43,302 nt of DNA, taken from positions 1 through 43,302 of the forward strand of contig JAOADA010000012.1 of the NCBI GenBank assembly GCA_026417555.1, given 5' to 3'. Source of the DNA: Brevinematales bacterium (GTDB taxonomy: Bacteria; Spirochaetota; Brevinematia; Brevinematales; Thermospiraceae). A program made the position numbers and the translations under genes. The notes beneath the pieces are model-generated. The model saw only the letters and a program-made list of their open reading frames with translations. It was not told the origin of the DNA and did no database searches. Positions 7,800-43,302 of this stretch are shown here, in pieces (the first letter of the stretch is position 1; each line of letters starts with the position of its first letter).

Positions 7800-9553
7800 G
7801 CGCTTTTCCTCCTTTCTGCTATGGCTTCACGGAGTTCCTTCTCATACTGCAAGAATTTCTCTTGTTTGAAGGGGCTGTAATTCATCTGTTTCATGATATT
7901 GATAAGCCGTTTGAAATACTGCCCCACCTCCTCAAAAGAACTAAATTCAAAATCACTCTCCAGAATCTCTGTGACAATATCCAGCATATACTTCTGACGC
8001 TCCAGAGGGGTAATAGCGTCAATCTCATCAAAAGCATCCTGTTGGTAAAGAACAAAATCGATCGTTTCTGATTTCCAGTACGTAATATGATAATCAACAG
8101 GTACCCCATCGTCTCCCAGAATCGTAATCTGATCATACGCCTCTTTCCCTCGAAGGGTCCAGTTTCTGGCATTGTACACCTTTTCTACCCAATCAGATCC
8201 AAGTCGCTTGTTGAGGTACGCCTGAATCTCTGGATACTCCAAGTACTTGGAATAACTGTCGATAGGATCAATGGCTGGGTAACGCTTCGAATCTGCCCTG
8301 GCCTGCGCAAGCGCATAAAAACATCGCGCGGCCTTTTTTGTCGCCTCGGTGACGGGTTCTTTAAGATTTCCCCCTGCAGGAGACACTGTCCCAATAAAGG
8401 TCACAGATCCTGTTTGCCCGTTGTTGAGATACACAATCCCAGCCCGTGAATAGAAATTGGAAATCACTGCTGGCAAATCCATGGGAAACGCATCAGGCCC
8501 AGGAAGTTCCTCAAGACGGTTGGACATCTCTCTCAATGCCTGCGCCCATCGAGAAGTAGAATCCGCCAAAAGAAGAACCCGAAGCCCCATATTCCGATAA
8601 TACTCTGCAATGGTCATCGCTGTATACACAGAAGCCTCACGGGCCGCCACAGGCATATTGGAGGTATTACAGATAATGGTGGTACGCTCCATGAGTTTTC
8701 GCCCCGTACGGGGATCAATAAGTTCCGGAAACTCCGTAAAGATCTCCACCACTTCATTGGCTCTTTCCCCACACGCGGCAATGAGGATAAGATCAGCCTC
8801 AGCGTTTTTCGAGATGGCATGCTGAAGCACCGTTTTTCCACATCCAAAAGGCCCAGGGATAAATCCCGTCCCCCCCTCAGCCATAGGGTTAAAGGTATCA
8901 ATGATACGGATCCCTGTTTCCATGACCTTGAAAGGTCTTGGCTTTTCCCTATAACACCGAATCTCTCTCTTGACAGGCCACCGTTGCACCATAGTAACAT
9001 CTACCGTGGTTCCCTCATCATTCTCAAGAACGGCAATCGTATCCTTGACTCTATACGATCCAGGAGACACGATAGACTTCACCTTCCATTTTCTTTCTAA
9101 TTTGAAGGGAACCATAATCTTATGATCAATCCAGTTCTCTTTCACTGACCCAAGCCAATCACCCGCCTGGACAGTATCCCCCACCCTCACAAGAGGTTGA
9201 AAATCATACCTTGCCTCCTGGTCAAGAGGCTCGGTATACTCTCCCCGTCGTAAAAAAATACCCTGCTTTTTGTCAAGGTCATTCTGTAGCCCATCAAAAT
9301 TCTTCGAAAGAAGCCCAGGTCCCAACTCTACTTCAAGCATATGACCTGTAAACTCTACATCTGTTCCTATCTTTAGACCGCGTGTTGATTCAAACACCTG
9401 CACATAGGCAATATTCCCTGTAATTTTGATCACCTCGCTCATGAGACGTGCATCCGGCATGTGAATAAAAGCAATCTCATTCTGTCCTACAGGACCATCA
9501 ACCTCAACCGAGACTAAGTTGGCAATAATGCCCTTCACTTTTCCCTTGACCAT
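7796..9553 (-). CDS. atpA: V-type ATP synthase subunit A (catalytic)
   Basis: This 585-residue protein is the catalytic ATPase subunit. It has the N-terminal barrel, the bulge or non-homologous region that separates V-type A from F-type beta, and an intact Walker A GPFGCGKT at residues 234-241. ACGERANEVVEI supplies the catalytic glutamate region, and LADSTSRWAQALRE is a family signature. The length is normal. Start ATG at 9553 overlaps the preceding stop as TAATG and is preceded by GGGAGGAAATA. Confidence 0.96.
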   Translation of the reverse strand: MVKGKVKGIIANLVSVEVDGPVGQNEIAFIHMPDARLMSEVIKITGNIAYVQVFESTRGLKIGTDVEFTGHMLEVELGPGLLSKNFDGLQNDLDKKQGIFLRRGEYTEPLDQEARYDFQPLVRVGDTVQAGDWLGSVKENWIDHKIMVPFKLERKWKVKSIVSPGSYRVKDTIAVLENDEGTTVDVTMVQRWPVKREIRCYREKPRPFKVMETGIRIIDTFNPMAEGGTGFIPGPFGCGKTVLQHAISKNAEADLILIAACGERANEVVEIFTEFPELIDPRTGRKLMERTTIICNTSNMPVAAREASVYTAMTIAEYYRNMGLRVLLLADSTSRWAQALREMSNRLEELPGPDAFPMDLPAVISNFYSRAGIVYLNNGQTGSVTFIGTVSPAGGNLKEPVTEATKKAARCFYALAQARADSKRYPAIDPIDSYSKYLEYPEIQAYLNKRLGSDWVEKVYNARNWTLRGKEAYDQITILGDDGVPVDYHITYWKSETIDFVLYQQDAFDEIDAITPLERQKYMLDIVTEILESDFEFSSFEEVGQYFKRLINIMKQMNYSPFKQEKFLQYEKELREAIAERRKSA

Positions 9554-39841: not shown

Positions 39842-40258
39842 ATGAAACTTGTCCGAAAAAACACCAATCCCTTCAGTTGGTTGGATGAGTTCTTCAAATC
39901 TGACTGGGTAACCTCGTTTGAGGATACCCCATGGTCGTTCAATGTCGACCTCGAAGAAACGGACAAAGCCTACATTGTCAAGGCTGATCTCCCAGGCATG
40001 GAAGAAAAGGATATCAAGGTCGAGTTGAACGACAATATTCTCACCATCAGTGGCTCCCGCACAGAAAAACGGGAGGAAAAAAACAAAAACTACCATCGTA
40101 TTGAGCGCTTCTCCGGAAGCTTTTGCCGCAGTATAGAACTTCCACGGGAAGTCGATGCCAACAAGGCAAAAGCAGAGTACCGAAAAGGTGTTCTCACGAT
40201 TGAACTCCCCAAAACAGGGGAATCCAAAACAAAAAAGATTGATGTAAAGATCTCATAA
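39842..40258 (+). CDS. Hsp20 small heat-shock protein 1
   Basis: The 138-residue protein has a short N-terminal arm and a full alpha-crystallin domain: WSFNVDLEETDKAYIVKADL, VELNDNILTISG and YRKGVLTIELPK. It is an ATP-independent chaperone that holds unfolding proteins. It is the most typical of the three tandem copies. The start follows AAAGGAGGTGGCCT. Confidence 0.94.
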   Translation: MKLVRKNTNPFSWLDEFFKSDWVTSFEDTPWSFNVDLEETDKAYIVKADLPGMEEKDIKVELNDNILTISGSRTEKREEKNKNYHRIERFSGSFCRSIELPREVDANKAKAEYRKGVLTIELPKTGESKTKKIDVKIS

Positions 40259-40268
40259 GGAGGGAGAT

Positions 40269-40682
40269 ATGATGAATCTCTTTTACGAACTCGAGAGAAT
40301 GAAACACCTGATGAATAGCCTCCTCGACACTCCCTTTTTCTGGGAGGAGGCAAGACAAAGTCGCCTCAGTTATGCCAACATCTACGAGAATGAAAATGGT
40401 TACATGATTCAGATGTTGGCTCCAGGTGTCAAGAAAGAAGGTGTAGAAATCCACTACGAAAACGAGGTATTGACTATCACCCTCAAAACTCCCGAAGAAG
40501 AGAAAAACGTTCAGTGGATTCGCCGGGAGAGACTCAAACCCATTGAGAGCCGAAGTTACCGTCTCTCGGCAGAAGTGGATCCAGCAAAGATAGAAGCCAA
40601 GCTTGTGGACGGTATCTTGCTCGTATTCTTGCCCAAACGAGAAAAGAAAGAACCCAAAAAGATCGAGGTCAAGGTAAAATAA
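40269..40682 (+). CDS. Hsp20 small heat-shock protein 2
   Basis: The 137-residue protein has an N-terminal helical arm (MMNLFYELERMKHLMNSLLD) and a diverged alpha-crystallin domain: SYANIYENENGYMIQMLAP, YENEVLTITL and LVDGILLVFLPK. It lies 10 nt after copy 1 with AAGGAGGGAGAT before the start. Divergence suggests a hetero-oligomer partner or different clients. Confidence 0.9.
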   Translation: MMNLFYELERMKHLMNSLLDTPFFWEEARQSRLSYANIYENENGYMIQMLAPGVKKEGVEIHYENEVLTITLKTPEEEKNVQWIRRERLKPIESRSYRLSAEVDPAKIEAKLVDGILLVFLPKREKKEPKKIEVKVK

Positions 40683-40692
40683 GGAGGGCCCT

Positions 40693-41028
40693 ATGGAAAA
40701 ACGCAAACTGATCCCTGCCACCGATATCTATGAAACCAAAGAGAGCTACGTTCTCCTCATGGAGATGCCGGGTATAGACAAGTCCACTCTCTCCGTCAAA
40801 GTAGACGACGATCGCCTGGTAATCGATGCTTCGACGGTAGAGGTAGGAAAAGAATGGAGGGCTATTGACACGGAGTTTGAATTGGGTGAGTACCATAGAG
40901 AATTCCGGATTGGCAACAAAGTCAACAAAGACAAGATTGAGGCTTCTTACCAGGATGGTATTCTCACCCTCACCCTCCACAAGGCAGAGGACTTCAAACC
41001 TCGCCAGATAGAGGTCAAAACAGCCTAA
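40693..41028 (+). CDS. Hsp20 small heat-shock protein 3 (no N-terminal arm)
   Basis: The 111-residue protein is almost only an alpha-crystallin domain: ATDIYETKESYVLLMEMPG, VKVDDDRLVIDA and YQDGILTLTLHK. It lacks the N-terminal arm that usually supports higher oligomers, and the C-terminal Ile-x-Ile motif is not obvious. It is the last gene of the three-gene operon and is followed by a terminator. GGAGGGCCCT precedes the ATG. Confidence 0.9.
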   Translation: MEKRKLIPATDIYETKESYVLLMEMPGIDKSTLSVKVDDDRLVIDASTVEVGKEWRAIDTEFELGEYHREFRIGNKVNKDKIEASYQDGILTLTLHKAEDFKPRQIEVKTA

Positions 41029-41040
41029 AACACCCCTGCA

Positions 41041-41070
41041 AGCCGCCGATGAGGCGGCTTTTCTTTTTTG
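41041..41070 (+). terminator. terminator of the Hsp20 operon
   Basis: AGCCGCC (41041-41047) pairs with GGCGGCT (41053-41059) around a 5-nt loop and is followed by TTTCTTTTTT. It starts 13 nt after the last Hsp20 stop. The hairpin shows that an ATG at 41049 is not a start codon. Confidence 0.92.
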
Positions 41071-41093
41071 TAAAAAATGCCGATACATACATC

Positions 41094-42053
41094 ATGTTTC
41101 GACGTCGATGGTTTTTAACACTCATGTGGTGTCTTGTGACTGTCCTCTTCTATGCGAGGGAGTATAGTGTACAGCCCGGAGATACTCTCATTGGTCTTGC
41201 CAAAAAAACGGGTGTCTCATCACTTTTTATTCGACGTCTGAATGAGCTCACCTCAGATACCCTCCGAGTGGGACAAAAGCTCATTCTCCCAGACGAAATC
41301 CAAGAATACACTGTTCAACAAGGAGATAGTCTTTTGGGTATTGCAAGACGTTTTTCAACTCCACTCTCGGCTATCATCCTCTGCAACCAACTTCCCCACG
41401 AAACCATTTATGTAGGACAGAAGCTCATCATCCCCCTTTTTTCGGAAAAGGACACCCAACCTCCCCCTCCCCCTCCCGCCTCAAAGCCCCTCATTCACAC
41501 GGTACGAGAAGGAGAAACCCTCTACAGTATCTCACGCCGTTATGGAGTTAGTGTCAATGATATCCTCACCTGGAATAAAAAGACATCCCCCACCCTCTTT
41601 GTAGGAGAAAAACTCCGCCTCTTTCCTATCACCCCTTCTCCCTCTTCTTCGCCTCCACTGGTTTCCTCACCACGTGGGGATATCACCTTTCCCATAGACA
41701 TATCCCTCATTGAAAATATCGAATCAACAACTCGAGGAATCAGAATCAAAGTGAGAGAAACCACCGCCCTGCGTTCCACAGCTCCCGGTACAGTAGAATA
41801 TACAGGTTGGCTCTATGGTTTTGGCAATGTCATCATCATCTCCCTCGGAGAAGAAAAACGACTCGTCTTTGGAGAACTCGAGAGCATCTCTGTGCGCAAA
41901 GGACAAAAAATCTCACCCGGTGAAGTCATAGCCATAGTTCAGGCAAACCAAGGATTTTACCTTGAGATACGAGACGGTACCACGGTCTTAGATCCGGTGA
42001 AATGGTACAAACTCCGTCTCGCTCAAAATCCCACTTCACCAGAGAATCTTTAA
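41094..42053 (+). CDS. LysM protein with degenerate LytM (M23) domain, NlpD/EnvC-like
   Basis: The 319-residue protein has a signal or anchor helix, then three LysM domains that bind peptidoglycan (about residues 23-65, 68-112 and 132-175; each has GDTL/GDSL/GETL and VGxKL). A Pro/Ser linker and a C-terminal M23-like domain follow. The metal ligands of active M23 peptidases are absent: the usual HG, YAHL and HLHFEI are replaced by LG, FGEL and FYLEI. Like NlpD and EnvC it is therefore probably an activator of cell-wall amidases, not a peptidase. No strong ribosome binding site is seen before the ATG at 41094. Confidence 0.88.
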   Translation: MFRRRWFLTLMWCLVTVLFYAREYSVQPGDTLIGLAKKTGVSSLFIRRLNELTSDTLRVGQKLILPDEIQEYTVQQGDSLLGIARRFSTPLSAIILCNQLPHETIYVGQKLIIPLFSEKDTQPPPPPPASKPLIHTVREGETLYSISRRYGVSVNDILTWNKKTSPTLFVGEKLRLFPITPSPSSSPPLVSSPRGDITFPIDISLIENIESTTRGIRIKVRETTALRSTAPGTVEYTGWLYGFGNVIIISLGEEKRLVFGELESISVRKGQKISPGEVIAIVQANQGFYLEIRDGTTVLDPVKWYKLRLAQNPTSPENL

Positions 42054-42121
42054 CCCCCCATCTCACGAACCCGTTTTCGAGAAACACCCCCAACATATCC
42101 CTGAAAAAGCCCCCTCATAAT

Positions 42122-42167
42122 ACTTCCCACTTTCCACGACCTCAATCCCACAATTGGCGGCTAAAAC
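42122..42167 (-). repeat. 46-nt direct repeat, left copy (contains a CRISPR repeat)
   Basis: The part at 42139-42167 is a CRISPR repeat whose 3' end on the minus strand reads GGGATTGAGGT instead of GGGATTTAAAG. The rest, 42122-42138, is two GTGGAAA/GTGGGAA-like heptads. The copy at 42654-42699 differs at one position. Confidence 0.88.
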
Positions 42168-42195
42168 AACACCGTCAAAACTCCAAAGTCTAACG

Positions 42196-42567
42196 TCACA
42201 AGCCCTCTTTCCTCATGAGATACTTTATCAATCCATAAATCACCTTGCTCACCTCTTCACAAGCAAAAATCAACTCCCGATGTTTCTCCACGCTGATATA
42301 CAAAAGATCATGCGCAATATGCAATAGCGACCTTAGCTCCCCACAACTCCCCTTCGCTATGTAGAGAAACTTCACAAATTCCCTGTCACTCCCCCTCTCA
42401 AAACCCTCCGCTATGTTCGACATGATAGATACAGATGCCCTCTGTATCTGATCCTTCAGGCCCAAATCATAACCATAACTCGTCTTAAACTCAAGTTTAT
42501 ACACCGCAATTGTTAAATCCCTCGCCAATTGCCAAGCCTTGATCTCTTCAAACCGTTTGATACTCAT
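42196..42567 (-). CDS. four-helix-bundle protein (23S rRNA intervening-sequence / S23 family)
   Basis: The 123-residue protein matches the four-helix-bundle family first seen as ORFs in 23S rRNA intervening sequences and related to the Avd protein of diversity-generating retroelements. Motifs are FEEIKAWQLARDLTIAVY, DQIQRASVSIMSNIAEGFER and EFVKFLYIAKGSCGELRSLL. Function is unknown; the family binds nucleic acid in some cases. The ATG at 42567 begins the usual family N-terminus (MSIKRFEEIKAW), but no good ribosome binding site precedes it. A longer in-frame reading to 42708 translates a CRISPR repeat and is rejected. The gene has the same orientation as the inferred CRISPR transcript and lies between two CRISPR repeats. 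Confidence 0.88.
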   Translation of the reverse strand: MSIKRFEEIKAWQLARDLTIAVYKLEFKTSYGYDLGLKDQIQRASVSIMSNIAEGFERGSDREFVKFLYIAKGSCGELRSLLHIAHDLLYISVEKHRELIFACEEVSKVIYGLIKYLMRKEGL

Positions 42568-42641
42568 ACTAAATTTTTCGACTGAACATCCCTCCCACTT
42601 TAAAAAACACCCATCACCACACACACACACCCTACTCCCCC

Positions 42642-42669
42642 TTTCGACTTTCCACTTCCCACTTTCCAC
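42642..42669 (-). repeat. four GTGGAAA-like heptads
   Basis: On the minus strand the units are GTGGAAA, GTGGGAA, GTGGAAA and GTCGAAA, directly next to the terminal CRISPR repeat. The left copy (42124-42137) has only two units. Confidence 0.8.
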
Positions 42670-42670
42670 G

Positions 42671-43302
42671 GCCTCAATCCCACAATTGGCGGCTAAAACA
42701 GTTTGCATTTTCTTTCCAAACCGCTAGTAGATTATACTTTAAATCCCACAATTGGCGGCTAAAACTAATTCGAAACAAAAAGCTCGGGCACACTACCATC
42801 GCTTTAAATCCCACAATTGGCGGCTAAAACGCGTGAATGTAGCAAAGCACATTCGTTTGCGAGGCTCTTTAAATCCCACAATTGGCGGCTAAAACCATAC
42901 CACGCGGCGCGCTCTTCTTTCGCAAGAGCGTCTTTAAATCCCACAATTGGCGGCTAAAACCACTACTACCTGATGTGACAGTTTGCCCACCACCACGCTT
43001 TAAATCCCACAATTGGCGGCTAAAACGTAGGCGATGAAAATTGAGATTCTTAAGAAAAGCGCCTTTAAATCCCACAATTGGCGGCTAAAACTAAGAAAAG
43101 CGCAGGAAAAAGAACAATTGAACTCTCTAACTTTAAATCCCACAATTGGCGGCTAAAACTGATTGGCAAATGCGAAAAAGTTTCTATCGATGAGACTTTA
43201 AATCCCACAATTGGCGGCTAAAACAAATCCACGCCGGAGGCGTTTCGTGGGACGGCTCTCACTTTAAATCCCACAATTGGCGGCTAAAACTCGTTCGACA
43301 GG
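42671..43302 (-). CRISPR. CRISPR array, leader-distal end (continues past the window)
   Basis: Ten 29-nt repeats are seen at 42671, 42737, 42802, 42867, 42932, 42998, 43063, 43131, 43196 and 43262, with spacers of 37, 36, 36, 36, 37, 36, 39, 36 and 37 nt and part of a tenth at 43291-43302. Nine repeats are identical; the first (42671-42699) is degenerate. On the minus strand the repeat begins GTTTTAGCCGCC and ends GGGATTTAAAG, like type I-B or III repeats ending GGGATTGAAAC. The degenerate repeat has its changes at that 3' end, as terminal repeats usually do. The leader and any cas genes would then be to the right of the window. A further degenerate repeat lies at 42139-42167. Confidence 0.96.

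Follow-up and report, generated by a model that had tools for sequence, protein, structure and literature searches.

For decades, IVP/S23 genes have been described as insertions in rRNA, and to our knowledge neither a function nor a mode of movement has been assigned to them. Intervening sequences of 23S rRNA that contain S23 genes are an old finding, and their mobility has been proposed (PMC4990558). The element that is described here resembles the intervening sequences (IVSs) with an S23/IVP ORF of Coxiella burnetii and Leptospira, which are about 0.4-0.5 kb long, contain an IVP-family gene as their only gene, have self-complementary ends, and are scattered and apparently mobile (PMC4990558). 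However, it is located at the terminal repeat of a CRISPR array and not in an rRNA gene, which excludes its classification as a 23S rRNA IVS, and its ends consist of tandem heptads. In addition, its downstream arm is weak and its RNA folds no better than shuffled sequence (z 0.14), so that a hairpin formed by the whole element was rejected.

Several other systems share single features with this locus. XCC0516 of Xanthomonas campestris (PDB 2gsc) and PDB 2rld belong to the same family by sequence (E=4.5e-11 and 0.0071, respectively), but no CRISPR context of XCC0516 is known from the search made here. The relation to the bAvd/Avd accessory proteins of diversity-generating retroelements (PF22296) is weak (E=7e-4, below the gathering score), and by score the protein is not a member of that family. 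Heptameric repeats of Xanthomonas and Nostoc are likewise intergenic tandem 7-mers that sometimes form inverted pairs, but the accessible part of that report links them to no IVP genes (PMC4692102). Insertion sequences in cas genes, as far as the available portion of the account goes, also exemplify mobile DNA inserting at CRISPR loci; unlike the element studied here, which has no transposase and is situated at an array end, they bear a transposase (PMC10359306). In the open literature searched, neither a class of IVP elements with heptad ends nor an IVP element at a CRISPR array end was described, and no paper combined the terms 'four helix bundle protein' and 'CRISPR array'.

An IVP gene between two terminal CRISPR repeats

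The window, i.e. the whole stretch of DNA analysed (43,302 nt), is the complete contig C3 of a 2.04-Mb assembly of 33 contigs and ends inside a CRISPR array. The ordinary part of the array (42731..43302, minus strand) contains nine normal repeats, all of which read ...GGGATTTAAAG, and runs off the contig. Two further repeats are degenerate and have the minus-strand 3' end GAGG in place of TAAAG: J1 on the array side of the element (42671..42699, minus strand) and J2 on its far side (42139..42167, minus strand). Each of them is contained in one copy of a direct repeat (42122-42168 and 42654-42700). The two copies are 532 nt apart and identical at 46 of 47 nt, and the identity extends no further on either side, so that the direct repeats of the preliminary description, composed of degenerate repeats and heptads, are real. 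Direct-repeat scores of at least 30 were obtained for 17 of 396 IVP loci (one of the 17 being an artefact of an N-run), in contrast to none of 341 control flanks, and the near-identity over 47 nt is therefore not due to chance. In CRISPR arrays, the terminal repeat often has a degenerate 3' end (PMC8047081); hence, the degenerate end itself is not strange, but its occurrence on both sides of a gene is.

The interval between the two degenerate repeats has a length of 503 nt, compared with 35-39 nt for the other spacers of the array. It contains an intact gene for a four-helix-bundle protein of the IVP/S23 family with 123 amino acids (42196..42567, minus strand, with the ATG at 42567 and the stop codon at 42196), which is co-directional with the array. 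The gene matches the whole PF05635 profile (23S_rRNA_IVP) with E=6.8e-34 and 116.7 bits (curated cut-off 33.8) as well as TIGR02436 with E=6.1e-33 and 113.3 bits (cut-off 24). These full-length matches above the curated cut-offs place it in the 23S_rRNA_IVP/S23 family and confirm the earlier proposal of a complete family member between the repeats, oriented with the array. It is the only ORF of at least 70 amino acids within 42168-42670 and no transposase or recombinase gene is present in this interval, so that the element is not a classical transposon or IS. An ordinary CRISPR spacer unit is excluded by the length of 503 nt, the gene, and the heptad ends. A search for Rfam families in the window from 41000 to 43302 gave no match.

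Between J1 and the gene, four upstream heptads are found (GTGGAAA GTGGGAA GTGGAAA GTCGAAA; 42642..42669, minus strand), with a best tandem period of 7 and 18 of 21 matches. The heptads downstream of the gene are weak (GACGTTA GACTTTG GAGTTTT GACG; 42173..42197, minus strand). They are partly pairable with the upstream GTCGAAA, their best period is also 7, but the score is only 14 of 21, and an inverted 11-mer common to both flanks is absent, as it is in about one third of the IVP loci. J2 is followed by two heptads (GTGGAAAGTGGGAAGT; 42122..42138, minus strand) that are identical to the first two heptads after J1 and may be the stump of a second copy of the element. By eye, three Hsp20-like small heat-shock genes were recognized in a row at 39842-41028, adjoining the LysM protein gene beside the array end.

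Heptad arrays at IVP genes of many phyla

The collection of IVP genes covered Spirochaetota, three additional phyla, and, through a sequence search, all phyla, and yielded 396 distinct loci. Both flanks were available for 383 of them, and flanks about 0.8-1 kb away served as far controls (n=345). The best upstream tandem period was 7-9 in 358 of the 383 loci (7 in 279, 8 in 65, and 9 in 14 cases) versus 123 of the 345 controls, so that upstream arrays with units of 7-9 nt are the rule at IVP genes. An inverted 11-mer joined both flanks in 240 of 383 loci, compared with 9 of 345 far controls and 7 of 383 loci after the downstream partners had been swapped. The difference from the swapped pairs shows that every element has a heptad sequence of its own that is common to its two ends. 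An IVP element is thus an IVP gene bracketed by its own short tandem arrays, of which the downstream array is usually the reverse complement of the upstream array.

As the heptads accompany the gene across many phyla, the 503-nt "spacer" of the window is an IVP element. The idea that the heptads are a property of the trailer of this array was ruled out by their presence at nearly all IVP genes, and the GTGGAAA heptads are not peculiar to this array but correspond to the ends that an IVP element normally has at any site. IVP elements accordingly form one broad class with tandem-heptad ends that occupies intergenic DNA, protein genes such as leuS, and CRISPR array ends.

The remainder of the array and close relatives

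Another 67 exact copies of the repeat are located on a second contig of the assembly, C8, which also contains a leader-like stretch and cas2 as well as the 3' part of a type I-B-like cas1. Because the leader-like stretch, cas2, and cas1 are on C8, the window gene is probably located at the trailer end of a type I-B-like array, provided that C3 and C8 form one array or have the same polarity. The two contigs have no spacers in common. The first 76 nt of C8 (C8:1-76) comprise the upstream stretch of the element and a third copy of the degenerate repeat, next to different spacers. The claim that the degenerate 3' end is exclusive to the two repeats around the gene therefore holds against the nine other repeats of the window, but not against C8. 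The overlap of C8:1-76 with the element includes one indel and is followed by divergence; this stretch could be a second partial copy of the unit in the window and thus indicate two array ends, or a strain variant, or an assembly artefact. Two array ends with the same cassette in one genome are possible because such a case was found in another genome (G852, see below). In units 64-66 (L040), the last normal repeats before the element on C8 end with TAAAC instead of TAAAG.

In a genome of the same genus (G002), a type I-B set is accompanied by a repeat that differs from that of the window at one base. No empty site was found in the same-genus genomes G001 and G002: both lack an IVP gene, and their LysM orthologues do not adjoin an array. 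G002 also contains a lone CRISPR repeat outside of a visible array, which lies between tandem repeats of the AACTTTA type and an inverted counterpart, without an IVP gene (L048, 1-170, from G002:C18).

IVP elements at array ends of three further genomes

An IVP element directly after a terminal or truncated CRISPR repeat was detected in three further genomes, namely a 'Deltaproteobacteria' MAG (G435) and two genomes from a phylum search around a Nitrospira MAG (G436), G1004 and G852. IVP genes with heptads and a duplicated CRISPR repeat thus exist elsewhere. The number is a lower bound, because the first CRISPR scan required three exact copies and missed G1004, which was found via its direct repeat. 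The scan matches at L093, L114, L257, L375, L412, and L439 were taken as tandem minisatellites or heptads and not as arrays, judged from repeated words and their spacings only.

In all four genomes, including that of the window, gene and array have the same direction, the distance between the junction and the repeat 3' end is at most about 6 nt, and the unit of repeat plus element is present in at least two copies, although in G435 the second repeat is identical at only 22 of 28 nt, as counted by eye. The G435 array (L155, contig JAGUZM010000492.1) has nine 37-nt repeats, the last of which lacks the final AC and is fused to heptads. It is followed by an IVP remnant and the repeat-like stretch, in which 22 of 28 nt agree with the repeat end together with its junction (by eye), and then by a second set of the same heptads with an intact IVP gene. 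In G1004 (L394), a cas2-like gene (by eye), a leader, two normal repeats, and two truncated repeats follow each other. The third repeat is truncated at ..GGAAT and leads into heptads without a gene, and the fourth is truncated at the same base and leads into the same heptads plus an intact IVP gene.

G852 has two arrays more than 200 kb apart on a 2.37-Mb contig, each of which ends in units of repeat and element (L368 and L369). Over 499 nt, the identity of the two cassettes is 97%, one and the same internal stop codon interrupts both genes, and the arrays also share the sequence before the first repeat. These features indicate that array and cassette were probably duplicated together, and that at least this copy was probably not spread by its own protein. 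Furthermore, the first array (L368, reversed coordinates 8523-8643) contains a gene-less element that is placed exactly at the boundary of a repeat and its spacer; after the element, the last 14 nt of the repeat occur a second time.

The IVP proteins at array ends belong to three separate lineages with identities of 33-47%. G852 and G1004 have sister proteins (81% identical, the next relative being far), and the repeats of their arrays are unrelated. In two other genomes, IVP elements whose proteins are 89% identical are located between cas1 and cas2 of type I-C-like loci (L262 and L266, by eye). A chance adjacency of gene and array in the window was ruled out by the duplicated repeat and the three further cases.

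Origin of the duplicated repeat around the element

Tandem units composed of a CRISPR repeat, or its 3' part, and an IVP element or remnant exist at array ends. We consider it probable that the 3' edge of the terminal repeat was the insertion site of an IVP element, which was then duplicated and collapsed as an oversized spacer by repeat recombination; the landing site as well as the later duplication and trimming of the unit are what we infer from the present arrangements. Having landed beside a CRISPR repeat, the element would represent an oversized spacer that is handled like any other spacer. Recombination between repeats is known to delete and duplicate spacer units in CRISPR arrays (PMC8047081), and slippage or recombination between repeats, or between heptads, could duplicate the unit of repeat and element. 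One copy would later have been cut back, leaving J2 and two heptads in the window, and a copy could travel along when the whole array is duplicated. Most likely, the IVP gene travels as a hitchhiker in tolerant non-coding DNA, and the proposed history does without a role in the CRISPR system. It would mean that whole genes can be carried and copied by a CRISPR array in the manner of a spacer. Because the CRISPR cases are natural insertions beside a known repeat, their junctions and duplications can be read exactly. The following observations do not favor the proposed history: the window has the intact unit ahead of the stump, whereas in the other cases the stump precedes the intact copy; the downstream heptads of the window are weak; and the order repeat, element, repeat is likewise expected from one insertion accompanied by a long target duplication.

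Such a one-step insertion into the terminal repeat region, with a target-site duplication of about 28-46 nt and the far repeat as the duplicated target, appears rather unlikely to us, despite the 46/47-nt direct repeat directly around the window element. It has a parallel in L391 (2382-2948), where the first codons of a YifB-family gene are present as an exact 30-nt duplication on both sides of an IVP element, and the downstream copy starts an apparently complete ORF. However, non-periodic direct repeats of at least 12 nt were found in only 17 of 385 loci (one in the swapped control) and were mostly inside the elements. Seemingly clean target duplications were confined to the window and L391 among these 385 loci, so that long target duplication is not a general rule for IVP elements and was rejected as such. 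The three other CRISPR cases contain at least two elements in tandem and not one element between two targets, and, as long exact target duplications are rare, a tandem duplication of repeat plus element fits them better. Of the earlier view that an IVP element had entered or duplicated the terminal repeat, the entry, the duplication of the repeat around the element, and the parallels in other genomes hold, but a 46-nt target duplication as a general rule does not. That the assembly wrongly joined an IVP locus to the array end is hardly credible: C3 and C8 do both end at this repeat-rich place, and C8:1-76 is the diverging overlap mentioned above, but the whole cassette and unique flanks on both sides are inside C3, about 600 nt from the contig end, and the same layout is present in three other assemblies, in G852 on a contig of 2.37 Mb. 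Nearly as improbable is that the gene serves the CRISPR system as a regulator, an integration helper, or an array boundary and is expressed from the pre-crRNA transcript. The common direction of gene and array in four genomes, the IVP genes between cas1 and cas2 in two genomes, and the listing of '23S rRNA IVP' in a figure legend on CRISPR-linked domains in a 2023 census (PMC10910872) are consistent with a function of this kind. Against it stand the internal stop codon in both array-end copies of G852, the gene-less or broken copies beside an intact one in G435 and G1004, the origin of the array-end genes from three unrelated IVP lineages, and the fact that cas genes are not regular neighbours of IVP genes.

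Array ends as possible target sites

IVP elements recur at CRISPR array ends. This suggests, but does not prove, that they prefer CRISPR repeat ends, and active targeting of such ends may be involved. A targeted association, in which IVP elements or some of their lineages recognize the 3' end of CRISPR repeats as a homing site, would be compatible with the duplication as an oversized spacer favored above, which concerns the later fate of the unit. Chance expectations were calculated for 395 loci with uniform intergenic insertion, 1-4 arrays per genome, and 11% of 3.2 Mb as intergenic DNA (the latter two values being assumed). Within 12 nt of the trailer end of an array, 0.01-0.05 loci are expected, whereas three genomes other than that of the window were observed (P 4e-7 to 3e-5); only a modest excess is left when the distance is widened to 100 nt (P 2e-4 to 0.01). 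These P values were computed after the cases had been seen and are to be read loosely. The common junction at the repeat 3' end would have a probability of about 1e-4 if insertion were uniform along the repeat-spacer unit. The presence of the sister IVPs of G852 and G1004 at the ends of arrays with unrelated repeats, and the position of the gene-less G852 copy inside an array, also argue for targeting.

On the other hand, arrays are long, tolerant, non-coding targets, and several insertions per 400 loci are expected without any targeting. Later loss of distal repeats would make internal insertions terminal, although the shared junction would then need another reason, e.g. that terminal repeats are truncated there anyway. 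Most IVP elements are found at non-CRISPR sites. Homing to repeat ends is doubtful in our view. Equally tentative is the idea that some IVP elements home to the repeat 3' end, enter the terminal repeat, and spread from array to array as oversized spacers, and would thus be transposase-less parasites of CRISPR arrays. If targeting is true, CRISPR repeats are the homing site of a new kind of element.

IVP elements outside of CRISPR arrays

Carriage by phages was rejected, as no relative was detected in the viral contigs and phage records searched, and 19 plasmid records carry distant relatives, all of which are less than 60% identical. At the purE-purM site, an IVP element is present in L168 and the site is empty in L170, and this one comparison suggests that no target duplication had occurred. 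Other elements lie between genes, e.g. between groES- and groEL-like genes in L157 (by eye). In L065, an IVP element (IVP at 1501-1815) splits leuS into an upstream piece that matches positions 83-361 of TIGR00396 and a downstream piece that matches positions 367-668. As almost nothing is lost between the two pieces, the leucyl-tRNA synthetase would either consist of two separately made parts or be missing. In L059, L062, L117, and L131, IVP elements interrupt or precede genes that resemble, by eye, DNA methyltransferase or restriction-modification genes.
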